A stretch of DNA of 51,439 nucleotides from a bacterium (GTDB lineage: Bacteria; Chloroflexota; Anaerolineae; Epilineales; Epilineaceae). Each line of letters opens with the position of its first letter. Position 1 is the first letter of the stretch. Under the pieces are notes generated by a model, which did no database searches, had not been told where the DNA came from, and worked only from the letters and a program-made list of their open reading frames with translations. Where the stretch lies: NCBI GenBank assembly GCA_003576755.1, contig QEVT01000004.1, positions 1-51,439 on the forward strand. Reading direction: 5' to 3'. The position numbers and the translations under genes were made by a program. Of the stretch, positions 34,212 through 46,704 are shown piece after piece.

Positions 34212-36440
34212 CTAGGGCAGCTGCAGCGCAGGATCGCCGAGCAGCAGGAACGTCTGCATCACGTCGCGGCCGCCCGGCGCGTCGGTCGGCACGGCGCGCC
34301 AGGCGTCGAGCACCGCATCGCCCAGGCGGGCGTGGCGACCGTCGGTCAGCCCCTGCGCCAGGGCATGTGCGAGCGCGCGTTGGTCTCCGGCCAACGTGAG
34401 GCTGGTCGGCGCGAGCGCTGCCACCGCCCCTCCGTCTTCGTCCCACAGCATGGCTTCTGCCAGCGCGTCGAGCGTGGGGTGGGTGAACAGACCGGTGAGG
34501 CAGGTCAGGTTGAGCACGATCGGGAGTCGCGGCGCGTTGGCCAGGCTCGGGACGTCATCGACCGTGAAGATACGGTCCTTGCCCCACTGGTTCACGCTGC
34601 CATGGCCGAAGTAGGCGAGCACCCCCACGCCCTCGTGCAGTCGGTCGCGGACCGTGTCGGTCATGCCGCCACCGTCGGGCGGGGCGGTCAGCACGGTGCC
34701 GGCGTACGGCCGCGCCATCGCGGCGAGGAAGCGCTCGGCGTCGTCTTCGAACGAGACTTCCTCCCCGTCCGCCACCGCCAGCACACGGGTCCGCCAGTCG
34801 GCGTCGCCGGCGGACTCGTAGGCCAGGATCTTGGCGACGAGGACGTCTACCTGCGACGACGAGCGGGCCGGGATGCGCCCGATGGCCAAGTCGGGCACGA
34901 GATCGCCGTCGAGCCGGGCAAACCCGACGTCGCTGCCGGTCTGGCCGCCGAAGACGGTGCGGATGAGGAAGGTCGGCAGACGGTTGGCGGCGGCGGGTAC
35001 GGTGAAGCCGCGGGGGTCGAACGTCGCGTCACCGACGAGCACCACGTAGCGCGGCGCGGGTCGCCACGCGGCGTGCGCATGTCGCAGGAACGCGCGGATG
35101 CCGTCGGGTTCGGCTTGGCCGTGCCCGAACTGATCGAACACCGCGGCCAGCGGTACGGCCGTCGCCTCCAGCCCCTGCGCACGACGGTGCGCCGCGAGCG
35201 GCTCGAGTGCGGGCAGGAGGTCCGCCGGCCCGATCGCCAACCAGTCGGCTCCGCGCGCCGGGGCACGGAGGTCGGGGGCGAGTGTGGCAGGCTCGATGCG
35301 GTCCGGCGTGCGGGCGCTGCCGGCCACGGCGGCCGCATAGCGATGGCCCGGCACGGTTCGCAGCTGATGGGGGGGCGTGCGGTCGGTGTGCTCGGTCTCG
35401 GCCGGGCCGTCGCCTGGCTCGACGTCGACGGCCACCGGTTGCGCGGGGTCCGTCACGTCCCAAACCGCCGGCACGCCGCTGAAGCCCACCAGGGTCACCG
35501 AAGGGCCAAGCGGGGCAGTGAAGGCGAGGCGACCGTCGTCGGCACGGGCCGGGCGAGGATGATCCAGCGCGATCCAGTCCAGGATCGGGATGTCGACGGC
35601 GACCCCGGCCACGCCGGGGGTATCGACCGCGATCGCGTTGGCGCCCGGGCGCAGCACGCCGTCTGGGAGCACGGCATCGACGACGTGGCCGGTCCGGCCG
35701 TCCCACGTGTCGTCGGCGGCCGGACGGCCGTTGACGGTGATCCGCACGCGGTGGTCGGGCGTCGCCGGCGCCTCGGTGGCGCCCCACAACGCCACCCGCA
35801 GTCGCGACGGGCCGGCGGCAAGCGCGCCGACGGTGGCGGTGAAGACCTCGGTTCGAGGGGCCGGAAGCGCACGCCACAGCCACGGGTCGCCGTCGCCCCG
35901 TTCCGGCTCGTACACGGCGTTGACTTCGGCGTGCACCGTGGTCAGCACGATGCTCCCGTCGGCAGCGGCGGGTCGGTAGGCCTCCGCAAAGCGGTCTGGC
36001 GTGACGGCAGGGCCGACCGGCGATGGTGCCCGGGCAGCGTCGGTCCCGGGAGCGATCCAGTACACGTGTTCCGCGCTGTCCTGGCCAGGGTTGCGCGTGC
36101 CGTAGAACGCCAGGGTGAACCCGTCGCGCGACGTCGTGACGCGCAGCGGCTGTGCCCGCCCCCGCAGGCGCAGCGTCAAGGTCGCCGGATCGATGCCGGT
36201 CCATCCGAGATTCCGGGAAAGGTCGCGGGCGGTGATGCGATACACCCCCGGGTGCGAGACGACCATCCGTCCCGCGGCGGCCGGTGGCGGGGTCGCGGCA
36301 CGGCAGCCCGCGGTGGCCATGACGAGCGCGACCACCGGCCACAAGGCGACCGCCACGCCCTTGACGAGAACGTCGACCCGATTCCGCGGCGACCGTCGCC
36401 GATCCCCGCCCGCCGTCCGCCGTCGCGGTCCGGCGATCAT
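34212..36440 (-). CDS. C25 (gingipain/PorU-like) cysteine peptidase, lipoprotein
   Basis: 742 residues from ATG 36440, which overlaps the preceding gene's stop (ATGA). A basic start precedes a hydrophobic segment ending in a lipobox-like MATAGC, so it is probably a lipid-anchored exoprotein. The middle is beta-rich; the Peptidase_C25 catalytic domain holds H613 in YFGHGSVNQWG and C647 in LNLTCLTGLF, the His-Cys dyad, 34 residues apart exactly as in the other C25 protein. The family includes gingipains (Arg/Lys-specific) and PorU, the sortase of type IX secretion. The substrate here is unknown. It is the last gene of the minus-strand unit and has no PT-rich tail; it ends LLGDPALQLP, as C25 domains often do. 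Confidence 0.88.
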   Translation of the reverse strand: MIAGPRRRTAGGDRRRSPRNRVDVLVKGVAVALWPVVALVMATAGCRAATPPPAAAGRMVVSHPGVYRITARDLSRNLGWTGIDPATLTLRLRGRAQPLRVTTSRDGFTLAFYGTRNPGQDSAEHVYWIAPGTDAARAPSPVGPAVTPDRFAEAYRPAAADGSIVLTTVHAEVNAVYEPERGDGDPWLWRALPAPRTEVFTATVGALAAGPSRLRVALWGATEAPATPDHRVRITVNGRPAADDTWDGRTGHVVDAVLPDGVLRPGANAIAVDTPGVAGVAVDIPILDWIALDHPRPARADDGRLAFTAPLGPSVTLVGFSGVPAVWDVTDPAQPVAVDVEPGDGPAETEHTDRTPPHQLRTVPGHRYAAAVAGSARTPDRIEPATLAPDLRAPARGADWLAIGPADLLPALEPLAAHRRAQGLEATAVPLAAVFDQFGHGQAEPDGIRAFLRHAHAAWRPAPRYVVLVGDATFDPRGFTVPAAANRLPTFLIRTVFGGQTGSDVGFARLDGDLVPDLAIGRIPARSSSQVDVLVAKILAYESAGDADWRTRVLAVADGEEVSFEDDAERFLAAMARPYAGTVLTAPPDGGGMTDTVRDRLHEGVGVLAYFGHGSVNQWGKDRIFTVDDVPSLANAPRLPIVLNLTCLTGLFTHPTLDALAEAMLWDEDGGAVAALAPTSLTLAGDQRALAHALAQGLTDGRHARLGDAVLDAWRAVPTDAPGGRDVMQTFLLLGDPALQLP

Positions 36441-37537
36441 CCGCGGCGCAGAAGCCGCGTGACCCGCCACGCCAGGACCACGAACACCAGGCCCATCAGC
36501 GTGATGGCCAGCGGCCGAGAGCCCGCGGGGGCAGCCGCCGGGGGATTGCCCTGCCTCTCGTGCGGTGCGGGGATGCGGTCGTCCGGGGCGGCGGCCTCGC
36601 GGGTCGCGGGCGCGCCGGGATCGTCGGCGGCGGGGGCCCCGCTCGCATCACCCGGCCGGCCGACGTCGGTGCCCAACCGTCCGCCCGCGGCAACGCCGGC
36701 TGTGGTCGGCGGTGCTTGCCCCATGGGCGACGCGGCGGCCTCGCGGGTCGATGGACTGCCTCCCGACGGGCGGGCTGGCGGGCTCGAGACGACGGAGCCG
36801 AGCGGCGCTCCGCCTGCAACTCCGGTCGCCGGCATCGGCTCGCCGCGCCCGCCGCCTGCCGTGCTCACGGGCCGAAGGTACGAGGTGGTCGCCGCAGGTG
36901 CCGGGGTGGGCGATGGCTGGCTCGTCGCAGGCTTGACAGTACGGGTCGGAGCCGATCCCGTCGAACGGCGCGTCGCCGCCGCCGTCGGCGGCGGCCCCGC
37001 CGAAGGCCCCGTCGTGCTGGTGGCGACCGGCGAGGGCTGGTTGGGAGGAGTGCGGCTCGCCGTTGCGCGAGCCGTGCGATCGGGTGGCGGCGTCGCGGTG
37101 CTTGTGGCCTCCGCGTCACACGGCACGCCGTCCAACCGCGCGCAGATCGGGCCGTGGAAGGTGGTGTGCTGGTCCGCCGCCCGGTCCTCGAGCGAGTAGA
37201 AGTACGCGACGCCCGGGCTCACCTGGGCATCCGTCCAGGCATAGCGGTCGCCGACGATGGTGGTGCCGGTGGCGGGGACGAAGGCGCTCACGCGGGCATG
37301 CTGGTTCAGATCCGCGGTCGCGCCACGGCGGACCCAGAAGCCCACCGTGTCCATCTCGGTGCCCGTCTCCCACGTCACGACGATGGTCTGGCCCTGCGCC
37401 CGGGCCGCGAAGTTGGTCAACGTGATCGACGCCGCGGCCGGTGCCGTGCCCGCCAACACCGACAGCACGAGCACCGCCGCCGCAACCCGCCATGCCGCCC
37501 GGCCGCCGTGTCGGAACCCCGCGACGAGGCAGGTCAC
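36437..37537 (-). CDS. Exported protein with FN3-like domain, Pro/Thr stalk and C-terminal membrane anchor
   Basis: 366 residues from GTG 37537, which overlaps the PqqD stop (GTGA). A signal peptide (VAAAVLVLSVLAGTAPAAA) leads to a ~95-residue beta-sandwich with TIVVTWETGTEMDTVGFWVRRG and GVAYFYSLEDR, a pattern common beside C-terminal sorting domains in Bacteroidetes and Chloroflexota. A long TP/AP-rich stretch follows, then a C-terminal helix (PLAITLMGLVFVVLAWRV) and a basic tail TRLLRRG. That three-part ending resembles CTERM-type sorting signals. It is sandwiched by 4-base overlaps between pqqD and the C25 peptidase, so tight co-expression is expected. It could be a substrate or a cofactor of that peptidase. 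Confidence 0.8.
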   Translation of the reverse strand: MTCLVAGFRHGGRAAWRVAAAVLVLSVLAGTAPAAASITLTNFAARAQGQTIVVTWETGTEMDTVGFWVRRGATADLNQHARVSAFVPATGTTIVGDRYAWTDAQVSPGVAYFYSLEDRAADQHTTFHGPICARLDGVPCDAEATSTATPPPDRTARATASRTPPNQPSPVATSTTGPSAGPPPTAAATRRSTGSAPTRTVKPATSQPSPTPAPAATTSYLRPVSTAGGGRGEPMPATGVAGGAPLGSVVSSPPARPSGGSPSTREAAASPMGQAPPTTAGVAAGGRLGTDVGRPGDASGAPAADDPGAPATREAAAPDDRIPAPHERQGNPPAAAPAGSRPLAITLMGLVFVVLAWRVTRLLRRG

Positions 37538-37851
37538 GGGTCGCCGCTCGCAGCCTCGCCTGGATGTGCGGATGGCTCGAGCATGAGCAAGGACTTCGCC
37601 TCGAGGTCGGCGATGAAGGCGAGCGTGTCCGCTTCCGCGCGCTCCTGCTCCACCTCGTACTCGAGGCAGATCTCCGCGACGATGCTCCTCACCGTCCGCG
37701 TGCCGTCGGCCAGCTGCCAGACCCTGGCGCCGACGTCGTTGAGCACCTTGATCTGACCATGGTCCGGTTGCAGCAGCACGGCTTCCTCTCCGACCATGCT
37801 GGTGGTGACCGTGGTGGCACGAACCGGCCGATGGTTGAGCGTGGGCGTCAC
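37534..37851 (-). CDS. PqqD-family peptide-modification chaperone
   Basis: 105 residues from GTG 37851, chosen for the strong Shine-Dalgarno CCAGGAGC about 9 bases upstream and for the family's usual length (~90-100). PqqD proteins bind leader peptides and present them to modifying enzymes (a RiPP recognition element). The core is EEAVLLQPDHGQIKVLNDVGARVWQLADGTRTVRSIVAEI, ending in the typical helical LEAKSLL. PqqD-like proteins occur with HprK-like kinases and nucleotidyltransferases. No radical SAM enzyme is in the window. A candidate leader peptide is at 43083-43289. Confidence 0.9.
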   Translation of the reverse strand: MTPTLNHRPVRATTVTTSMVGEEAVLLQPDHGQIKVLNDVGARVWQLADGTRTVRSIVAEICLEYEVEQERAEADTLAFIADLEAKSLLMLEPSAHPGEAASGDP

Positions 37852-37895
37852 GATCGGTGCTCCTGGAGGCGGCCACTCCGACGGAGGGCGCGGGG

Positions 37896-38471
37896 CTAGC
37901 GGACGGGCCTCAGAGTGGGCAAGCGGACGAGCTGGCGCGTCAGACGCCGAAGCACACCGGCCGACAGGCGAGCAAGCCGTGCGGCAGGCCCCTCGGCTCG
38001 AGCGCCGAGCCTGCGCTCGAGGCTGCTCGAGGCACCGACCAGCCGATTGGCCATCGTCCACCGGGTTTGACGGAAGTCGAGCATCCGACCGCGCCGCTCG
38101 GCCGACACGACCTTGCCAAGGATGGCGGCGGCGGCGACGGGCGGGTCGGCTTCACCGACGTTGTCGCCCTTGGTATGCCAGCCCTGGCTGTCGACTGCGA
38201 TCAAGCGGTGGGTCAAGAGGTCTTCAGCCAATCGCACGAGCACGAGGTCGCCGCACTGCAGCCGCTTCGCGGGCATGGGTTCCACCCACACGAGATCGCC
38301 GTCGTGCAGAAGCGGAGCCATGCTGTGCCCGACCACGCGCAGGCGAAGTCGGCCATTCTCGCGCAGCGAGGCATGCGCCAGATCCAGCACCGTCGGCGAA
38401 TGGTACGGCCGACGCGCCGGCCGAGTCGGCGGCGCGCGGTCCGGGCGAGTGACATCGGTCATCGACAGCAT
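37896..38471 (-). CDS. S24/S26-like serine peptidase (signal-peptidase fold), soluble
   Basis: 191 residues. The catalytic Ser is S50 in RVVGHSMAPLLHDGD (box B of type I signal peptidases). Box D is DLLTHRLIAV, with H88 where the bacterial enzyme has Lys, so this is the Ser-His type found in SipW, archaeal and ER peptidases. Box E is TKGDNVGEADPPV. No membrane helix is seen at either end, unlike ordinary signal peptidases, so it may act in the cytoplasm, perhaps on a leader peptide. It begins 15 bases after the large C25 gene ends and 44 bases before pqqD. An extended -10 sits right before the ATG. Confidence 0.85.
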   Translation of the reverse strand: MLSMTDVTRPDRAPPTRPARRPYHSPTVLDLAHASLRENGRLRLRVVGHSMAPLLHDGDLVWVEPMPAKRLQCGDLVLVRLAEDLLTHRLIAVDSQGWHTKGDNVGEADPPVAAAAILGKVVSAERRGRMLDFRQTRWTMANRLVGASSSLERRLGARAEGPAARLARLSAGVLRRLTRQLVRLPTLRPVR

Positions 38472-38480
38472 CGAACACTT

Positions 38481-38489
38481 ATCATATCA
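38481..38489 (-). promoter_or_regulatory. Extended -10 promoter before the S26-like gene
   Basis: TGATATGAT on the minus strand (TGn + TATGAT) overlaps the stop codon of the C25 gene. Transcription would start about 7 bases downstream, right at the ATG, so the transcript may be leaderless. Confidence 0.5.
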
Positions 38490-41400
38490 CATGCCGGCGA
38501 TCTCGTCCGCCGCGACCGCCGGTCGAGGGCGGGAGCGAATCCGCCCGTGCCGCCGGTCGGGGCGCGCACGGCCGGCCGACGCTCCCGTGGGGGTGGCGTT
38601 GTACAGCGCCGGCAGGTACACGCTGCCGCGCCGACCCTCGACCGTGGGGGTAGCCCCTGGCGTCGGCGGCGACGCCGGCGTGGTGCGTGCCGCCGTCGAC
38701 GTCGGTGTCGGCTCGAACGGACCGACCGGCACCGGGATCCGCAGCGCCGGGTCACCGAACAACGTGTAGGTATGCAGCAGGTCGACGTTGGCGCCCGACC
38801 TGAACAACCGCAGCTTGGCGGCCACGGTTGCCGGCCCGAAGATGGTCTGGCCCGCGCCGTACACCGCGTCGTAGAACCCTGCCTGCAGCAGCTCGTGCCC
38901 CGTCATGACCCCGAGCCCGGTCGGCGAGAACGTGGCCACCGCCCCGGCGCGGGGGAGACGGACCAGGCTCTCGGCCATGCTCTGCCACGCGGGATAGCTC
39001 CAGTACCCGTCGAGGCACGTCCACGACAACACGATCGGCAGATGCTCGCCGTTGCGGAGCGTGGCCAGATGGGCCGTGTTGAGCATCTGCTCATGGCTCC
39101 ACCAATCCACCTTGCCGTGCCCGACGAAGTTGACCAGCAGCGCGCCGGTGATGTTGAGATGGCGCGTGATGGCTTGGCTGGCCTTCGCGCAGGCCGTGCC
39201 GTTGGTGCATGCTCCCGCGTCGATGAAACGGTCGAGGAAGATGCGGTCGGCGATCGCCCCGTCGGGGAGGTTGCTCTCGATGAAGCGCGCCGTGGCGCCG
39301 GCGAAATCGCCGGCCGCGTCGACGATCCCGGGCCGCACGAAGGTGTTGTCGGCGATGAACAGGTGCCGGCGGCCCCATGCCTGCGGTCCCGGCGCCTCGT
39401 AGGCCACGATCTTGTCGATGACGGCGTCGAGCTCGGCGGCCGTGCGGACCGGCAGTCGGCCGATCGCCACGTCCGGCATCGGATCGGCGCCGACGACGGT
39501 GGCCAGGCGGTTGGCGCTGTCGACCTCGCCCTGGACCGGGTCCACCCACTCCAGGTTCGGTGGCATCAAGATCGGGCTGGGATCGGCATGGGCTGGATGG
39601 CCCAGGAAGTTCCAGTGGCCGTCGCCGACGACCACGACGTACGCCGGCACCGGGGTCGGCCAGGTGGCCATCGCCCACGCGAGGAAGTTGCGGATGGCGC
39701 GCGGGCCGAAGATGCCGTGGTTGAAGGCATCGTAGAGGTCTTCGACGTCGACGACGGCCACGCGCAGCCCCTGCCGAGCGCGGTGATCGGCCAGGCGCTG
39801 CGCAGCCGCGTGCAGGCTGCGCGGGGTGACGACCACGTGGTCGGCGCCGGCGCCGGGCTGTGCCAGCGGCGAGGCCGGCAGCCAGGCGACGGCGGCCGGT
39901 GCCCGGTAGCCACCGGCGGCGGCGGCAACGAATCGGGCGTCGCCCGACGATTGGAAGGCCGCGGCATGGCGGTTGCCTTGCGCCGTGACCCGGGCGCCCG
40001 TGATGCGCACCGGGCTGTTGGGCCGAGTGATGTCGAAGACCTCGGCATCGGGCGTCGTGAAGCCGTCGACGTCGTAACGGCGTGTGCTTGCATCCAACGC
40101 GTCGAACGCCAACGCATCGGCCTCGACGGCGAGGCGTCGCGGGTAGGTCACCTCGAACCAGTCGAAGTACAAGGTGTCGCCCGTGGTCCCCGGCTGGAGC
40201 CGGGGATCCACCAGCAGCCGATTCGCGCCGTCGCGAAGTGCGGCGGCCGGGACTTGGCCCTGGAACGCGAACCGCGTCGCGCCGTCCCAACGGGCTTCCT
40301 GGACCACGGTGCGGGGGTCGTTGAACATGAACCGGACGTGGTGGTCCGGCGACCCGGCCGCCGACGCGTTGGCCACGATCTCGCCGCGCACCGTGGCGCC
40401 GGCCGCGCCCACGGCGACGCCGGGCAGCGTGATCGCGAACGACTTCGAGATCGGCACGGCGGGATCCGCCTCCACCACACGGAAGAGATGCCACAGCCAA
40501 ACGTCGTCGCTGGTGAAGTGGCGCGTGAACCACACCTTCGACTCCTCCGCGCGCACGGTTGAGCGGGCGTAGGCGGCTGCGGCGGTGTTGGGCCGTGGCG
40601 CGCCGTCCCGCGTGCCCATTCGGGCACCGCGTTGGCCGCCCGCGGCGAGCCAGTACACGTTGGTCTGGGTGTAGCGCGCGTCCCCCAGCGTGCCGGAGAT
40701 CGGCGTGCCGAGCCAGTCGATGGTGGAAGGAGGGCTCCGGAACGGCTCACCGTAGAACACGACGGCGTCGGTGGCGTCGAACCGCCCGTCCGATTCGCCG
40801 ACGACATGGATGGCGACGGGTTCGCCGCGGTTCGTGAGCGCGAACGTACGGGGATCCACCGCATCGACGTCCATGCCGGCGGCTTCGAGGTCGTCGTGGC
40901 CAAGCCGGTACAGCCCCGGCCGATCCACCGAGACCTTGAGCCGCGGTCCATCGCCGGCCTGGGCGATGGACTGCCGTGCGTCTGCCAGCGCCACCGCGTC
41001 GACGTGTTGGGCGAAGACGGCCCGGTCTGCCCGCCAGGCGCGGGCCTGGTCGCCGTTGGCCAGGCCGTGGCGCAGGAGGCGGTCGAACGGCTCGACGGCG
41101 CCCCGGTCATCGGCTGGGCGACCGGGCGTCATCGCGGCTGACGTGCCATCGCCCGGGGCCGCGAACCGGAGGGTCGCGCGGACCCGTCGGTGCTGCACCA
41201 GCGCGTGGCGGACCGCGTCGAACCGGTAGGGGCGAAAGGTGACGCGGACGACGCGTTGGTCGCGGACCCAGGCTTCGCCGGCCAGCGCGGCCGGCGCGTC
41301 GGGCCGCAGGCCACGCGGGTGCGCCACCTTGCCCTCGGCGGCACCGGACGGCGGTCCGGCACGCCAGCCGGCCGTATGGTCGGGCGTGCCGGTTTGCCCC

Positions 41401-41789
41401 ATCGATCCCGGGACGGCCCGGACGGCGTCCGTCGAGACATCGAGCGCGACGTCGGCACCGGGCGGGACGCCGACAAGCGCCGTCACGGCCGGGAGCGGCG
41501 GTCCGCCGCCTGCATCCGGCCATGTCAGCTCTCCGACGCCGGCCGCTTGGGGCTGGCCGGCCCGTGCCATCTCCGCCATCTCGGCCGCATGGATCAGCGC
41601 GGGCGCGGTGAGCTCGAGGCTCACGCCCGACGCGTCGGCCTGCACGAGGCGCACCGTGGGCTGCGCCGGACCGGGTGCCGCCGCACCCGGATTCGGCATC
41701 GAGAGGCCATGAAGGATGACCATCGCGAGGGCGCAGAAGCCCACGGCCCCCCCGAAGGCGGCGTTTCCGAGTGGATTGCGATGCTGCAT
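38487..41789 (-). CDS. Large C25 (gingipain/PorU-like) cysteine peptidase with Pro/Thr stalk and YLP tag
   Basis: 1100 residues. A signal peptide (GGAVGFCALAMVILHGLSM) precedes a propeptide-like region, a beta-rich middle and the C25 domain, with H891 in VNFVGHGKVDWWS and C925 in LSWTCLDGYWS. Its length and domain order recall PorU, the C25 sortase that removes sorting domains in type IX secretion. After ~residue 1040 there is a TP-rich stalk, then VYLPALYNA and a basic tail (~40 residues). The ATG follows GGGGAG at 6 bases, a strong Shine-Dalgarno. It is 103 bases after the HprK-like gene on the same strand. PorU function is not shown; no other type IX genes are visible. Confidence 0.88.
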   Translation of the reverse strand: MQHRNPLGNAAFGGAVGFCALAMVILHGLSMPNPGAAAPGPAQPTVRLVQADASGVSLELTAPALIHAAEMAEMARAGQPQAAGVGELTWPDAGGGPPLPAVTALVGVPPGADVALDVSTDAVRAVPGSMGQTGTPDHTAGWRAGPPSGAAEGKVAHPRGLRPDAPAALAGEAWVRDQRVVRVTFRPYRFDAVRHALVQHRRVRATLRFAAPGDGTSAAMTPGRPADDRGAVEPFDRLLRHGLANGDQARAWRADRAVFAQHVDAVALADARQSIAQAGDGPRLKVSVDRPGLYRLGHDDLEAAGMDVDAVDPRTFALTNRGEPVAIHVVGESDGRFDATDAVVFYGEPFRSPPSTIDWLGTPISGTLGDARYTQTNVYWLAAGGQRGARMGTRDGAPRPNTAAAAYARSTVRAEESKVWFTRHFTSDDVWLWHLFRVVEADPAVPISKSFAITLPGVAVGAAGATVRGEIVANASAAGSPDHHVRFMFNDPRTVVQEARWDGATRFAFQGQVPAAALRDGANRLLVDPRLQPGTTGDTLYFDWFEVTYPRRLAVEADALAFDALDASTRRYDVDGFTTPDAEVFDITRPNSPVRITGARVTAQGNRHAAAFQSSGDARFVAAAAGGYRAPAAVAWLPASPLAQPGAGADHVVVTPRSLHAAAQRLADHRARQGLRVAVVDVEDLYDAFNHGIFGPRAIRNFLAWAMATWPTPVPAYVVVVGDGHWNFLGHPAHADPSPILMPPNLEWVDPVQGEVDSANRLATVVGADPMPDVAIGRLPVRTAAELDAVIDKIVAYEAPGPQAWGRRHLFIADNTFVRPGIVDAAGDFAGATARFIESNLPDGAIADRIFLDRFIDAGACTNGTACAKASQAITRHLNITGALLVNFVGHGKVDWWSHEQMLNTAHLATLRNGEHLPIVLSWTCLDGYWSYPAWQSMAESLVRLPRAGAVATFSPTGLGVMTGHELLQAGFYDAVYGAGQTIFGPATVAAKLRLFRSGANVDLLHTYTLFGDPALRIPVPVGPFEPTPTSTAARTTPASPPTPGATPTVEGRRGSVYLPALYNATPTGASAGRARPDRRHGRIRSRPRPAVAADEIAGM

Positions 41790-41892
41790 GGCGCACTCCC
41801 CATGATGGTGCTTGCGCGGGTGACACGGTCGTCACGCGGCGCGGGTCGTCCTGTGCGCCGTCCACCGCCGATTGCCGTCCCGGCGCGCCGGC

Positions 41893-42792
41893 TCAGGCGG
41901 GTTCGAAAGCGGGCAGGTCGGCGGGCACCGGGGCCGGTGCGATGAGGGGCCAGAACGACGGGTCTGGGCGGCAGTGCAACCGGCCAAACGGTACGGCGCG
42001 CACGATCGCGTCGGCGCGCGCCATCAGGCGGGCGGCGCGGTCGGGGTCGAGACCCACCACGGGCGCGCTTGCGACGAGGTCGGCCACGGCCGTCGCCGCA
42101 TCCACGCGTTCGATCGCTGCAGCAGGCGCGTGGACCAGACGGTAGATGCCACCGAGCGGTGCCCACCGCGGCCCGCTCGGCGCGATCTGCGTCGGGTTCG
42201 AGAAGGGCGTGCTGAACGCGGACCAACCGGTCGGGCCGGGGCGCAGCACGATCAAATCGTCGTTGAGGGTCGCACCGGCGGAGTGCCGGGCCACCGTGGT
42301 CTTGCCGCTCCCCGACGGCCCGACGAAGGCGTACGCGACGCCGTCGCGCACCACGCCGGCCGCGTGCAGCAGCAAGCCATCCGCATCGACGGCCAGCAGC
42401 GCCACACACAGGCGCAGGAAGTAGTCGGTGTGCTCGGCGGCGCGGGCGCCGGTCAGCCGAAGGTCCGCCACACCGTCGGCGACGTCGATCTCACCAGCCC
42501 GGCCCGGAGCGCGATGCACGAGAACCCCGCGTGCGAATCGCGTACGCTCGCCTCGATCGTCTCGAGCGCTCGGCCAATCCCCTTCGGTGCCCTCGCTCTC
42601 GTCGTCGGCGTCCGACCAATGGACCCGAACCTTCATCGAGGGGGCGGCGGCGACGCGGTACGCCGCGTAGCGCGCGTCGAGCGCACGGCTCGGGAGCACG
42701 GCGTCGAACGCCACCGACAGCCTCAGGCCGGCGATGTCGAGCGTCCAGGAAGGCGGTTGGTTGTCGCGTGGTTCCGAGATGGTGCTCATCAT
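41893..42792 (-). CDS. HprK-related serine kinase-like protein
   Basis: 299 residues from ATG 42792 (ATG 42789 and 42822 also possible). The P-loop is VGPSGSGKTTVARH (~157-170), preceded by LLLHAAGVVRDGVAY, the usual strand-and-His of HprK-related proteins. LNDDLIVL follows as the Asp-Asp motif. It lacks the HPr-kinase N-domain and no ptsH is near, so it is unlikely to act on HPr. Members of this group occur in lasso-type loci, where one phosphorylates a peptide's C-terminal Ser, and in PqqD/nucleotidyltransferase cassettes. Target here unknown; the precursor-like peptide 290 bases upstream is a candidate. Confidence 0.85.
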   Translation of the reverse strand: MMSTISEPRDNQPPSWTLDIAGLRLSVAFDAVLPSRALDARYAAYRVAAAPSMKVRVHWSDADDESEGTEGDWPSARDDRGERTRFARGVLVHRAPGRAGEIDVADGVADLRLTGARAAEHTDYFLRLCVALLAVDADGLLLHAAGVVRDGVAYAFVGPSGSGKTTVARHSAGATLNDDLIVLRPGPTGWSAFSTPFSNPTQIAPSGPRWAPLGGIYRLVHAPAAAIERVDAATAVADLVASAPVVGLDPDRAARLMARADAIVRAVPFGRLHCRPDPSFWPLIAPAPVPADLPAFEPA

Positions 42793-42911
42793 CCGCCCAG
42801 GAAATCGCCGCGATGTGAGCACCGGCCCAAGGCCACGGCGCCGAACATCTCGTGGGGTGGCGCCGTCGGGCCTGCGGACCGGGCAACGCGTGGCGCTGGA
42901 TCAATCGCCAA

Positions 42912-42938
42912 AGCTTAGCACAACCAGGCTTCCGTCAA
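42912..42938 (-). promoter_or_regulatory. Possible promoter of the HprK-like gene
   Basis: Minus-strand TTGACG (42933-42938), a short 15-base spacer and TAAGCT (42912-42917). The hexamers are good, the spacing is sub-optimal. Confidence 0.4.
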
Positions 42939-43082
42939 TGCGCCGGTGTCTGTTGCCAAGGAAGACGTCGAGCAACCAAACCAACCTTCCGAAGAACACC
43001 CGTGCTCGCTGGTGGGGGCGGCGAGGCGCAGGGATTGGGTGGACGGCGTGCCGCTAAAATGCACGCCGCGCCCGGACCGGTG

Positions 43083-43289
43083 TCAGCGCTGCGACCCGGC
43101 GGCAGTCGGATCCCATGGATTCTGCGTCTGGCCGGAAACCGGGTCTTCCAGGAACAGCGGCGATCCCGCGCGCGCTTCGATCTCTACCTCGTGAATGATC
43201 GACGGGGTGCGGTAGGGCTTACGCAGCGAAGCCGCTCGCGGGCTTGCCGATCGCTCGTTCGCGATGCGGCGGGTCTCCATTGGCGTCAC
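43083..43289 (-). CDS. Candidate RiPP precursor peptide (KPYRTP leader motif)
   Basis: A frame from GTG 43289 to the stop at 43083-43085 codes 68 residues; ATG 43280 gives 65. GGAGGG lies 4 bases before the GTG. In the 65-residue numbering, the leader has KPYRTPSIIHEVEIE (21-35); Y23-x-x-P26 matches the YxxP motif that PqqD-like leader binders recognise in lasso-type precursors. After ARA comes GSPLFLEDPVSGQTQNPWD, which would be a core if cleavage is before Gly39. It lies between the nucleotidyltransferase and HprK-like genes, on the same strand. Evidence is short motif and context only. A -2 Thr, usual for lasso leaders, is absent. Confidence 0.5.
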   Translation of the reverse strand: MTPMETRRIANERSASPRAASLRKPYRTPSIIHEVEIEARAGSPLFLEDPVSGQTQNPWDPTAAGSQR

Positions 43290-43556
43290 GATACCCTCCG
43301 TGTGCTCGATATGGGCGAAGATCACTCGGCCAACCGACTCCTCGCCGTCGGATATGCGGGGAACCGACGGAAAGCATGCCATGGCGATGCTCACCTGGCA
43401 TTCTGTGGCGCACATACTAAAACGTATTGGCGCCGGAAATGGATACGCCGAAATGCCGGGCGGCCCAACGGCACTGCACGCTAGAATCCCGGAAGCGCAC
43501 GCGAGGCAACTGTCTGGCACGCGTCGGACCGGCGTCGGTCTGGCGGGAGGGTCGTT
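43290..43556. other. Intergenic region upstream of the candidate precursor
   Basis: 267 bases between the precursor and the nucleotidyltransferase end. It is less GC-rich than its surroundings. TAGTAT on the minus strand (43414-43419) could be a -10 but has no fitting -35. Other frames here do not look like genes. Confidence 0.4.
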
Positions 43557-44714
43557 TCATCGAGCGCGGCGCACGGCCTTGAGCCAGCGATAGACGTAGT
43601 AGCCCGGCGCCAGCCACGGGTGCCGGATCGCATAGCGACGTCGCATGTACGCCAGGGGCGGGACGAGCTTGGCCTGCACGTAGCGGGCCCGCATCGACCA
43701 TCCCGGAGTGTAGGCCAACACGACGCGCATCTCCGACCACAGCCCGTGCCGCTGGCGCTCGACGGCGGCCGCGGCACGGTGCTCGTCGGCCGAGGGGGTG
43801 AGCGCGGCCACGGTCCGAAGCACGGCGGACGGGATCCTTCCGGGCGCGGGCACGGCTGGCAGGATGCGCTGCAACGGCAGGACGAGGTCGCACGCCTCGG
43901 CCAGCCCCAACAGCGCGGGCCAATCGAAGGCGTCGCCCTGGTGCACGAGGACCTCGGCGATGTCGTGGAGCCAGCGCAGGGCGAGGCCTTGGCTGTCGGG
44001 GTGGTGCAGCGCCAGGTGGGCGCAGAGATGCAGCACGGTGGCTTCCGGGCTCAGCACCACCGCGGCGGCATCACCGACCGTCACGGGCCGGGCCGAACGC
44101 CAGAACGTCTCGACGGGAAGACGATGCCGGTAGGGCGGCCGGTCCACGAGGGTCCAGTGCAGGTCGACGATGGCGTGTGGCGGCGCTTGCCGGCGCAGCG
44201 TCGCCTGGCCCCCGAACGCGACGATCGCCTCGACGTCGGCGCCTGCCTTGCCGCGCTCCGCGAGCTCGTTGTTGCCCACCACGAGGTCGTACCCGTGCGC
44301 CCGCACGGCGCCGATGGCGGCCGAGGCGTGCTCCGGCGGCACCAGGATGTCGACGTCGCCGAGCGTTCGCAACCCGATGTGCTCGTAGACCGTCAGCACC
44401 AGGGCCGCGCCCTTGAGGAGCATGACGGGGATGCCGACGCTGGCCAGGGCGCCGATCAGTCGGGCGAGCTCGACCATCAGCCACGCGTTGGCCGCTGCCG
44501 TGTGGTAGTAGCGGTCGCGCAGGTGCTCACCCAACGCATCCGGCAGCGCCACACCGGCCTTGGTGACGACGTCGTACACCAGCGGCTCGACATCGTGCGC
44601 GTGCGCCGCCGCGGCGATGGCCGCCCACGGCCGCGCGGTCGTGGGGTCGAGGCGCACGCCCGGCTGCCGCGCGGCAAGGATGTCCAGCAGCGCCTCGGGG
44701 GTCGGACGCCGCAT
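43557..44714 (-). CDS. Nucleotidyltransferase family protein (NTP_transf_5-like)
   Basis: 385 residues from ATG 44714. The signature is PVMLLKGAALVLTVYEHIGLRTLGDVDILVPPEHA: K101-G-A-A-L and the metal-binding D120-x-D122 of a pol-beta-type fold. Conserved later parts include VDLHWTLVDRP and LCAHLALHHPDSQGLRWLHDIAEVL, typical of family PF14907. These are the nucleotidyltransferases found beside PqqD and HprK-like proteins, and in the paeninodin lasso locus; their reaction is not settled. The gene is 58 bases downstream of the DsbA-like gene and 267 bases upstream of the candidate precursor, all on one strand. Confidence 0.88.
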   Translation of the reverse strand: MRRPTPEALLDILAARQPGVRLDPTTARPWAAIAAAAHAHDVEPLVYDVVTKAGVALPDALGEHLRDRYYHTAAANAWLMVELARLIGALASVGIPVMLLKGAALVLTVYEHIGLRTLGDVDILVPPEHASAAIGAVRAHGYDLVVGNNELAERGKAGADVEAIVAFGGQATLRRQAPPHAIVDLHWTLVDRPPYRHRLPVETFWRSARPVTVGDAAAVVLSPEATVLHLCAHLALHHPDSQGLALRWLHDIAEVLVHQGDAFDWPALLGLAEACDLVLPLQRILPAVPAPGRIPSAVLRTVAALTPSADEHRAAAAVERQRHGLWSEMRVVLAYTPGWSMRARYVQAKLVPPLAYMRRRYAIRHPWLAPGYYVYRWLKAVRRAR

Positions 44715-44772
44715 GACCCGGTGCGACAGGCCGCCGGGCACGCCAAGGGCGTCATGGCGCACGGAGGGTGCC

Positions 44773-46704
44773 TTACGGCGCCGCCGTCTCGACCGCCTGG
44801 GACCGGGCCGCGGCGATGGCCGCCTCGAAGCGATCGAGTGGCTGTGCGCCGCTGAGCAGTTGTCCGTTGATGAAGAACGCCGGGGTGCCGCTGACACCGA
44901 GCGCCGCGCCTTGTGCCTGGTCGTCGAGCACGGCCTGCCTGTGCGTTCCAGCCTCGACGCAGGCCTGGACCGCTGCGCCGTCGAGGCCGGCCCCATCCGC
45001 AACGTCGGCGAAGGCGGCCGGGTTGCCCGACCAGTCGCTCTGGCGCTCGAAGAGGGCACGGTGCATGGTCCAGAAGCCCGTGTCGCCGCCCTGGTCGCGG
45101 GCGCAGCGCGCCGCCTCGGCGGCTTGGATGGCCTCCGGATGGATGGTGTCCAACGGGAAGTCCTTGAACACATAGCGGACTTGACCGGTCTTGACATAGC
45201 GCGCGACGATCTCGGGATAGACGGTCGTCGTGTGACGCTGGCAGAACGGGCACTGGTAGTCCGAGAACTCCACCAGCGTCACCGGGGCTTCGACCTCGCC
45301 TTGGGCCGGGGCGTCCCCGAGGTCCACCGCGGCGGGGGTGGCCGTGGCTGGCGGCGTGCCGAGGATCTGCGGCTCGAGCGTGGCGGCCAAGTCCTTCGGA
45401 ACCTCCATCGTCAGCTTCTCGCCGCGCTCGAGCTGCTCGATCATGTCGCGCAGCCCTTCGAGCGGCGGCACGCCGGCCCGGTAGTACCCGTTGACGAAGA
45501 ACGTCGGCGTGCCGTTGATGCCGATCGACGTCGCCTGCTGGACGCTGGCTTCGACCTTGGCGGCGTGCGTTCCGGCCGTCAGGCATGCCCGGAGGGCCGC
45601 GCCGTCCAACCCGCCGTCGGTGGCGAACCGGGCGAACACCTCGGCCGGATCGGGCAGCTCCGACCACTCGGCCTGGCCGGCGAACAGGGCGTCGTGCATG
45701 GCCCAGTAAGCGTTGTCGCCGCCCTGGTCGCGCGCGCAGTGCGCGGCCGCGGCCGCGGCCGGCGCGTTGGGGTGGATGCTGGTCAACGGGAAGTCCATCC
45801 ACACGTGCCGCACCCGCCCCGTGGCCACGAACTCCTCGACGTAGTCGGGGTAGACCTCGCTCGTGAACTTGGCGCAGAACGGGCACTGGTAGTCCGAGAA
45901 CTCGATGACGGTCACCGGCGCGTCGGGCTCGCCCTGGCTGGGGGCACCGGCGGCATCGATGTCGTACGTCGGGGCCGTGATCTCGACCATCTCCGGCGTG
46001 GGCTCGACGGTGGCGGTGGGCAGTGTTCCGCCGGCCACCACGATGTCGAGGCTGGTCTTGAACTCCTCGAACGGAAGGGCGCCCTGAAGGATCGCCCCCT
46101 GGACTTGAAAGCTCGGCGTGGCGCCGAGGCCGAGCCGTGTCGCCTCGGCAAGGTCGGCCTCGACCGCCTCGGTCTGTTGTCCTTCGTCCAGACAGGCCGC
46201 GAACGCGGCGGCGTCGATGGCGGGTTCGACGTCCAGCCCGGCGGCAAGCGACTTGAACATCTCGCCGGCGGCGTCGTTGCCCGACCACTCGTCCTGGGTC
46301 TTGAAGAGCTGGTCGTGCATGCGCCAGTATGCCGCGCTCCCGCCCTGCGCCCCGACACACCGCGCGGCCTCCGCGGCCTTGGTGGCTTGTGGGTGGATTT
46401 GCACCAGCGGCAGGTCGCGGAAGATCACCTTGACCTGCCCGCTGTCGACATAGGTCTCGTCGATCCGGGGCGCCGTCTCGGCGAAGTGCTGGGCGCAGAA
46501 CGGGCATTGGTAGTCCGACCACTCGACCAGCGTCACCTTCGCGGCGGGGTCACCCTTGACCATGTAGGCCGGCACGCCGTCGATGGTGCCGCCGCCCGCC
46601 GGCGCCGCGCCATCGTTGCCGGCGGGTGTGAAGGCTTGACAACCGGCGAGCACGGCTGCGGCCAGCAGGCCGGCGGACGACGTGCGATGGGGGATCCGGC
46701 GCAT
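44773..46704 (-). CDS. Lipoprotein with three tandem DsbA-like thioredoxin domains
   Basis: 643 residues. A signal peptide with lipobox VLAGC (Cys22) anchors it outside the membrane. Three Thioredoxin_4/DsbA-type domains follow, each with SDYQCPFC: C67/C70, C274/C277 and C485/C488, spaced 207 and 211 residues. Each also has a cis-Pro loop: GATPSFQVQG, GINGTPTFFVNG and GVSGTPAFFING. Domains 2 and 3 and their linkers are PT/AP-rich. Single-domain DsbA-like lipoproteins are common; three copies in one chain is unusual. It likely forms or repairs disulfides in exported proteins. No DsbB or VKOR partner is adjacent. Start at 46704 has no clear Shine-Dalgarno. A plausible promoter is upstream. Confidence 0.93.
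   Translation of the reverse strand: MRRIPHRTSSAGLLAAAVLAGCQAFTPAGNDGAAPAGGGTIDGVPAYMVKGDPAAKVTLVEWSDYQCPFCAQHFAETAPRIDETYVDSGQVKVIFRDLPLVQIHPQATKAAEAARCVGAQGGSAAYWRMHDQLFKTQDEWSGNDAAGEMFKSLAAGLDVEPAIDAAAFAACLDEGQQTEAVEADLAEATRLGLGATPSFQVQGAILQGALPFEEFKTSLDIVVAGGTLPTATVEPTPEMVEITAPTYDIDAAGAPSQGEPDAPVTVIEFSDYQCPFCAKFTSEVYPDYVEEFVATGRVRHVWMDFPLTSIHPNAPAAAAAAHCARDQGGDNAYWAMHDALFAGQAEWSELPDPAEVFARFATDGGLDGAALRACLTAGTHAAKVEASVQQATSIGINGTPTFFVNGYYRAGVPPLEGLRDMIEQLERGEKLTMEVPKDLAATLEPQILGTPPATATPAAVDLGDAPAQGEVEAPVTLVEFSDYQCPFCQRHTTTVYPEIVARYVKTGQVRYVFKDFPLDTIHPEAIQAAEAARCARDQGGDTGFWTMHRALFERQSDWSGNPAAFADVADGAGLDGAAVQACVEAGTHRQAVLDDQAQGAALGVSGTPAFFINGQLLSGAQPLDRFEAAIAAARSQAVETAAP

Follow-up and report, generated by a model that had tools for sequence, protein, structure and literature searches.

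A probable LPP-like RiPP cassette with two C25 peptidases and an anchored protein in Anaerolineae: a proposed peptide-maturation and surface-protease system

We analyzed positions 1 to 51,439 of contig QEVT01000004.1 (assembly GCA_003576755.1), hereafter referred to as the window, from a member of the Epilineaceae (Chloroflexota, Anaerolineae) represented by a 4.4-Mb draft genome of 489 contigs that is 82% complete. Nine genes on its minus strand (34212-46704) include those for a precursor peptide, an HprK-like kinase, two peptidases of family C25 (C25a and C25b), a soluble S26-type peptidase, PqqD, an anchored FN3-like protein (ANCH) and a nucleotidyltransferase (NTase). We consider it fairly probable that they encode a system for a ribosomally synthesized and post-translationally modified peptide (RiPP) resembling the linear polyphosphorylated peptides (LPP) described by Popov et al., 2026 (PMC13381572), with an added surface-protease module formed by C25a, C25b and ANCH. 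The gene set probably makes a small phosphorylated peptide which is handled at the cell surface by the two caspase-like proteases. The initial annotation had proposed a new peptide-modification or surface-sorting system. The modifying half (PqqD, HprK, NTase and a type I signal peptidase, SpI) is of a known, LPP-like kind, whereas the C25a/C25b/ANCH module, the occurrence outside Bacillota and the versions with radical S-adenosylmethionine (SAM) enzymes are new; the tie of an LPP-like peptide half to C25 proteases likewise appears new.

The window sequence and its open reading frame calls confirmed that all nine genes run in one direction and that PqqD overlaps the anchored protein, and the anchored protein C25b, by 4 bases (gap -4 each), as initially annotated. 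One set of 60 genomes was searched for PF14907, PF01364, PF05402 and the HprK-like protein. Sixteen of the 46 strongest PqqD matches (in 15 genomes) have a C25 gene no more than 8 kb away, with 0.45 expected and a maximum of five in 200,000 random placements; these figures refer to the 93 strongest C25 and the 46 strongest PqqD matches, weaker ones being dropped, and the null ignores contig ends. Clustering of neighborhoods revealed a recurrent precursor-C25a-S26-PqqD-ANCH-C25b cassette, with HprK close by in part of the cases. Using the C25b alignment as query, we retrieved 79 loci from the GTDB contig collection; having been selected by C25b, they are silent on how frequent C25 is. After removal of 13 duplicates from all loci taken together, with one representative kept per duplicated stretch, 172 unique loci remained, 104 of them with a C25 match of at least 300 bits. 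The exact order C25a-S26-PqqD-ANCH-C25b is present in 13 of the 172, ten of which have the precursor upstream, and the order C25-S26-ANCH-C25 in 11 further unique loci. Among the 52 unique C25 loci with PqqD or a precursor within 12 kb (core loci), we found PqqD in 45, the precursor in 38, ANCH in 35, S26 in 34, HprK in 28, radical SAM in 22, Wzz-type polysaccharide genes in 13 (the identity of this cluster being our own reading), ABC genes in 11 and NTase in eight. The PqqD-C25 neighborhood check, set beforehand, was thus positive in many genera, and C25, PqqD, the S26-like, HprK-like and anchored proteins stand as one conserved set.

The candidate substrate is a 68-aa peptide whose leader, ...RKPYRTPSIIHEVEIEARA, is followed by the core GSPLFLEDPVSGQTQNPWDPTAAGSQR (type A), the frame ending in ...RKPYRTPSIIHEVEIEARAGSPLFLEDPVSGQTQNPWDPTAAGSQR. 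Neither Pfam nor NCBIfam gives a match to this peptide up to an E-value of 0.1. Since it lacks a hydrophobic stretch (the highest mean over 15 residues being 0.27), the peptide does not present itself as an obvious Sec substrate. The family was first seen in 12 loci of the clustered neighborhoods (alignment A1), and the A1 profile, with the seeds and the window sequence in the model, gives matches in 96 of the 396 class genomes searched (E ≤ 0.01), the weak ones possibly being other YxxP precursors. We aligned 69 precursors on the Tyr/Trp of [YW]xxP, which fixes this residue and the Pro by construction, and found Ile/Val at +5 in all 69, Glu at +8 in 55, Leu at +11 in 63, Glu at +12 in 62 and Ala at Y+15 in 67, giving the leader consensus YxxPxIIxExxLExxA. 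Position Y+13 is A, V, T, I, L or S in 67 of the 69, while Y+14 additionally takes R (35 cases), Q, F, K, H and E; as the entropies of the two positions are close (2.24 and 2.43 bits), the argument for an A-x-A site rests on the kinds of residues allowed. Judged by sequence, A-x-A at Y+13 to Y+15 is the predicted -3/-1 pattern of a signal peptidase cut, and the precursors that carry it adjoin the gene for the signal-peptidase-like S26 enzyme. Directly at this site, A-G-(S/T/Y) is found in 48 of 50 Cys-free precursors (S in 42, T in five, Y in one), which places the hydroxyl residue at core position 2. In the fetched stretches, 37 precursors have a same-strand C25 gene downstream, at a distance of no more than 1 kb in 26 cases. 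The host genome also encodes another type A precursor, which shares the QNPWDP tail and is located at the end of a different contig (C94, 11-148).

As for the maturation enzymes, the PqqD family profile has the lasso RiPP recognition element (RRE) TbiB1 (5v1u/5v1v) as its best solved relative (4.6e-15). The HprK-like protein possesses the Walker A motif GPSGSGKT, and its Lys and His are invariant in 15 aligned sequences. Its family profile matches are sub-threshold only, and its alignment retrieves mostly P-loops of ABC proteins among solved structures, with HPr kinase at 3e-4; the kinase-type fold rests on a model (pLDDT 90.1) for which PEPCK gives the best PDB matches. In the S26 peptidase, the Ser, His and Asp positions are invariant in 17 of 17 sequences, and the profile matches SEC11C (2.4e-13). 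S26 is fused in frame to ANCH in four unique loci (L032, L033, L081 and L105), which ties the peptidase to a membrane protein.

According to Popov et al., 2026 (PMC13381572), LPP are restricted to Bacillota. There, the kinase LppK phosphorylates Ser3 of the core and is inactive on the S3T and S3Y variants, LppS together with LppB cuts after Thr-1, which by the LPP motif corresponds to Tyr+15, and the nucleotidyltransferase LppN had no effect in the host used. The resemblance to our loci is extensive: a discrete RRE, an HprK-like kinase and an NTP transferase, all present in the window; a leader peptidase of the archaeal SpI (SipW-like) type with Ser, His and Asp, recognized here by sequence only; a YxxP leader cut after residue 15 beyond the Tyr; a hydroxyl residue close to the core N-terminus; the absence of a cyclase; and, in some loci, polysaccharide genes nearby. 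The shared RRE, kinase, NTase and SpI parts and the common cut register indicate that the window holds an LPP-like maturation half. Yet, the two systems differ in several respects. The LPP leader reads YxxPxVLxHQxIxFETxxS, so that the HQ and FET elements are not matched in our consensus while YxxP and the cut register agree. LPP have Ser at core position 3, in contrast to Ser, Thr or Tyr at core position 2 here; their clusters contain an MsbA-like exporter, whereas none was found in the window and ABC genes lie near only the minority of core loci counted above; and they are found in Bacillota, whereas our loci belong to Anaerolineae and a few other lineages of metagenome-assembled genomes (MAGs). 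The C25a/C25b/ANCH module and the radical SAM variants go beyond LPP, and that paper's main text mentions neither C25 nor Chloroflex. If our reading holds, a plan of phosphorylated RiPPs said to be limited to Bacillota would also be used in Chloroflexota and in a few further MAG lineages, and it would be linked to proteases of the gingipain/PorU type.

A further relative is the paeninodin/pseudomycoidin type of lasso peptide cluster, for which PMC8498205 describes the K and N enzymes and the binding of the leader by B1. It shares with our loci a PqqD-like B1, an HprK-like K, an NTase N and a precursor with a bound leader, and YxxP is the lasso recognition motif according to PMC12710340. Such clusters also possess a macrolactam cyclase and a B2 protease, neither of which lies within 12 kb of C25 in any of the 52 core loci or gives a profile match in the window. 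We also found no PF13471 in the 82% complete host genome, where three PF00733 matches are all located on other contigs. A decayed lasso cluster was rejected on these grounds, with one exception: in L109 (genome G138, contig C71), a stretch dropped as a duplicate, B2 lies 10.6 kb and the cyclase 9.7 kb from C25. The initially annotated lack of both genes therefore stands for the window and the core loci, though not for this stretch. The C25 cassette of L109 is a radical SAM version, and the lasso-type matches lie upstream of it at a distance of about 10 kb.

In turn, the SynChlorMet cassette (SCM, TIGR04248-04251) resembles our loci in combining PqqD, the HprK relative ScmC and a radical SAM enzyme in Chloroflexota. 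We detected one such locus (L043, genome G059) with ScmC, ScmD and ScmE above cut-off as well as S26, ABC and NTase genes; no C25 was found within the 10 kb examined. For the window an SCM cassette was rejected, since its PqqD scores 40.6 against a cut-off of 100 and its HprK-like protein 17.5 against 125, and no radical SAM profile matches there. The proteins of locus L051, too, fall far below the SCM cut-offs. SynChlorMet was not found in the literature searched, in which we also found no link of family C25 to RiPP, PqqD or radical SAM (preprints and most subscription papers being outside its coverage) and nothing relevant on a signal peptidase with PqqD and a leader peptide; PMC10352776 contains nothing relevant on C25 or PqqD.

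We therefore propose the following course of events, drawn by comparison with lasso and LPP systems. PqqD would bind the [YW]xxPxI leader of the precursor, as lasso and LPP RREs do, and the HprK-like kinase would phosphorylate a hydroxyl of the core, which in type A would be the Ser of A|G-S-P at core position 2; in loci that have an NTase, this enzyme may decorate the phosphate. The SipW/SEC11-like S26 peptidase would then cut after the near-invariant Ala at Y+15, as the -3/-1 pattern and the LPP register suggest. The linear peptide would leave the cell through an exporter for which the window gave no match. On the outer side of the membrane, C25b as a lipoprotein and C25a as a secreted protein would process the peptide or serve it, with the anchored FN3-like protein as a possible platform at the membrane. 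In sister cassettes the leader, PqqD and the C25 step would be kept, and a radical SAM enzyme and Cys-bearing cores inserted. Leader binding by PqqD, phosphorylation of the core Ser and cleavage by S26 after Ala are fairly strongly suggested, because LPP shows each of these steps. The conserved surface-protease pair would offer a first handle on a possible post-export fate of LPP-type peptides.

Both window proteases belong to peptidase family C25, with the catalytic domain and the His/Cys dyad (GHG 890-892 and TCL 924-926 in C25a). Both catalytic residues are conserved in all 35 C25a, in 39 of 40 C25b and in 25 of 26 other C25 proteins near PqqD or a precursor, a set that includes the window C25a as reference. 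Both misses are partial frames, that of C25b being broken before the site. A tree of 90 of 146 catalytic domains separated the two enzymes completely, its 17 C25a and its 37 C25b falling on opposite sides. A lipobox was recognized in 27 of 40 C25b, including one (L022) that looks false by eye, as opposed to none of 35 C25a. When the trees were compared with precursor types, C25b separated with a single change (20 rows), against a mean of 6.5 after shuffling and with none of 500 shuffles as low. C25a together with single C25 needed three changes for all precursor-type groups (22 rows), against a mean of 8.3 after shuffling and with none of 200 shuffles as low. The 56 sequences left out of the tree and the 21 left out of the type comparison were those in which a simple pattern missed the catalytic stretch, the residues themselves being present. 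The separation by precursor type is the pattern that coupling to the peptide would give, although taxonomy may contribute. ANCH consists of a signal, one FN3-like domain, a Pro/Thr-rich stalk and a C-terminal transmembrane helix; its model (pLDDT 64.7 overall) is confident only in the FN3-like domain and the terminal helices.

The same observations bear on the possibility that two neighboring systems are involved, i.e., an LPP-like cassette beside a general surface protease/adhesin module (C25a, ANCH, C25b) with no biochemical contact between them, which we regard as unlikely. Lone C25 genes are indeed common, among the 37 unique loci that combine two C25 with ANCH only 26 have PqqD and only 24 the precursor, and the FN3-like domain recurs in further secreted proteins encoded in our loci (clusters c12 and c14). 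However, missing parts may lie past contig ends, and PqqD sits inside the C25/ANCH run, by a 4-base overlap in the window and at the same place in 12 other unique loci. The S26-ANCH fusions moreover bridge both halves, C25b divides according to precursor type, and C25, PqqD, HprK and radical SAM stay together even in MAGs labeled Spartobacteria (L172) and Thermoanaerobaculia (L196).

The correspondence of C25 and precursor types, as well as the pairing of the two genes, including three tandem pairs in L196, would also be expected if the peptide were a ligand or regulator of C25 (an activator, inhibitor or pheromone-like propeptide) rather than its substrate, and clan CD peptidases are commonly zymogens. 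We hold this to be decidedly unlikely, as the cores are short and variable and some genomes contain scattered extra precursors. Genome G115 has five precursor matches; the four stretches fetched from it (L087, L091, L097 and L098) gave no C25 match, and one of them carries PqqD and HprK. A single maturation set may thus serve many peptides.

The closest solved relative of C25a by sequence is PorU (6za2, 4.9e-13), the sortase of the type IX secretion system (T9SS), and both window C25 proteins have the C25 catalytic domain of PorU and gingipains and a partial PorU profile match. They differ from T9SS PorU in their two-enzyme arrangement and in being tied to an RRE and a precursor peptide. A genuine T9SS was rejected, given that the window proteins score 247 and 192 bits against 420 for the PorU equivalog and that the T9SS tail signal TIGR04183 is marginal in the host genome (23.8 bits, in a 3864-aa frame). 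A Y-L-P-L-V-like motif is present at the C-terminus of 25 of 35 C25a as compared to one of 40 C25b, some of the ten C25a misses being near-variants; in the window C25a, VYLPAL stands some 40 residues ahead of the C-terminus. Many secreted proteins encoded in these loci carry at their extreme C-terminus a (Y/F)-L-P-(L/M)-(V/L)-x-(R/K)-like sequence that resembles a sorting signal (C25a of L019, L020 and L110; c12 of L038 and L056), for which a literature search gave only unrelated papers. PorU-like sorting, in which C25b or C25a would act as a transpeptidase that trims or joins surface proteins at their C-terminal tails, with the modified peptide as acceptor or anchor, would suit the PorU relationship, these tails and the Wzz-type genes near some core loci. 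Yet, the PorU equivalog cut-off is not reached, the tail signal is marginal and the acceptor is a candidate only, and we find this reading highly improbable. A related version, a RiPP-coupled surface-sorting machine with a phosphorylated or radical-SAM-modified peptide as acceptor or tag, in which the membrane lipoprotein C25b of a PorU-like pair would cut the C-terminal Y-L-P-L-V tails of secreted proteins, C25a included, and re-join them to the peptide or its glycan for display at the cell surface, is in our opinion very unlikely.

Several findings count against an LPP-like system with an added surface-protease module. HprK and S26 are each missing from a good part of the core loci (present in only 28 and 34 of 52), both PqqD and a precursor are missing from the 12 kb around C25 in 52 of the 104 unique C25 loci, and only 26 of the 93 strong C25 matches lie within 15 kb of PqqD, many C25 genes standing alone. 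Among 40 precursor-centered stretches, C25 was found in 15 and not in 25, and ten of the 20 stretches of at least 10 kb lack it. No ABC exporter was matched in the window by a locally built profile, and six of 50 Cys-free precursors have T or Y at core position 2, which is to be set against the inactivity of LppK on S3T and S3Y in PMC13381572. A radical SAM signal was seen beside one type A precursor (L019) as two weak pieces of 29 and 48 bits, below our 100-bit line and perhaps remnants of a decayed gene. The action of C25a, C25b and ANCH on the exported peptide is only weakly indicated. Finally, the six nearest relatives of the host (G001-G006) gave no precursor match and no C25-PqqD pair among strong matches; this patchy distribution suggests that the cassette moved horizontally.

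Sister loci contain a radical SAM enzyme and Cys-bearing cores with the leader, PqqD and C25 kept. None of the 48 type A precursors has a radical SAM gene (above 100 bits) within 5 kb, whereas 17 of the 21 other precursors do, and the cores of these others mostly contain one or two Cys. As the type A pattern already demands S, T or Y, the residue itself is better judged from the 48 of 50 Cys-free precursors above. The use of one leader for phospho-type and radical-SAM-type cores would be a clear, testable case of module swapping. Modules beside C25 were found in MAGs named Anaerolineales, Thermoflexales, Ardenticatena, Caldilineales and Candidatus Aquidulcis. C25, HprK, PqqD, radical SAM, precursor, S26 and NTase occur together in an unclassified MAG (L158), the same set except the precursor in the Spartobacteria MAG, C25, HprK, PqqD and radical SAM in the Thermoanaerobaculia MAG, C25, PqqD and radical SAM in a MAG labeled Coatesbacteria (L174), and C25, PqqD and S26 in one labeled delta proteobacterium (L182), although MAG labels can be wrong. 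The tandem C25-precursor pairs of L196 (102-13151) have cores of the type LFATVCNPPAK..A(T/I)CSSGPISS and lie beside radical SAM, HprK-like and PqqD genes.

Table 1. Minus-strand genes of the locus, with window coordinates
Feature	Position	Strand	Basis or remark
Precursor peptide, 68 aa	43083..43289	-	GTG start at 43289, GGAGG 5 nt upstream; family matches
HprK/PEPCK-like kinase	41893..~42792	-	Start codon uncertain, alternative GTG at 42822
C25a, secreted C25 peptidase, PorU/gingipain-like, 1100 aa	38487..41789	-	PF01364, 8.3e-78
Soluble S26B (SEC11/SipW-like; S24/S26-like) peptidase, proposed leader peptidase	37896..38471	-	Catalytic positions, SEC11C profile match
PqqD, discrete RRE	37534..37851	-	PF05402, 2.9e-19
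Anchored FN3-like protein (ANCH)	36437..37537	-	Alignment of 18, model, fold search
C25b, lipoprotein-type C25 peptidase, 742 aa	34212..36440	-	PF01364, 3.6e-72; lipobox-like ATAGC
PF14907 nucleotidyltransferase (NTP_transf_5), accessory	43557..~44714	-	1.9e-53; start uncertain
Three-domain DsbA-like lipoprotein	44773..46704	-	NF041057, 2.7e-128; probably outside the system

A promoter and terminator scan gave no minus-strand site and is hence uninformative on co-transcription. The NTase, initially counted as a member, is present in the window, but with so few core loci having it within 12 kb of C25 it is accessory. A thiol oxidase role for the triple DsbA-like protein had also been assigned to the system. 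DsbA-like matches were found in two of the 172 unique loci (the window and L131), in a collection where many stretches end close to the cassette, and on this evidence thiol oxidation is probably not part of the system. The protein itself belongs to NF041057 (the Rcas_1661 family) and comprises three tandem thioredoxin domains, each with CPFC, which are recognized as three Pfam DsbA domains.

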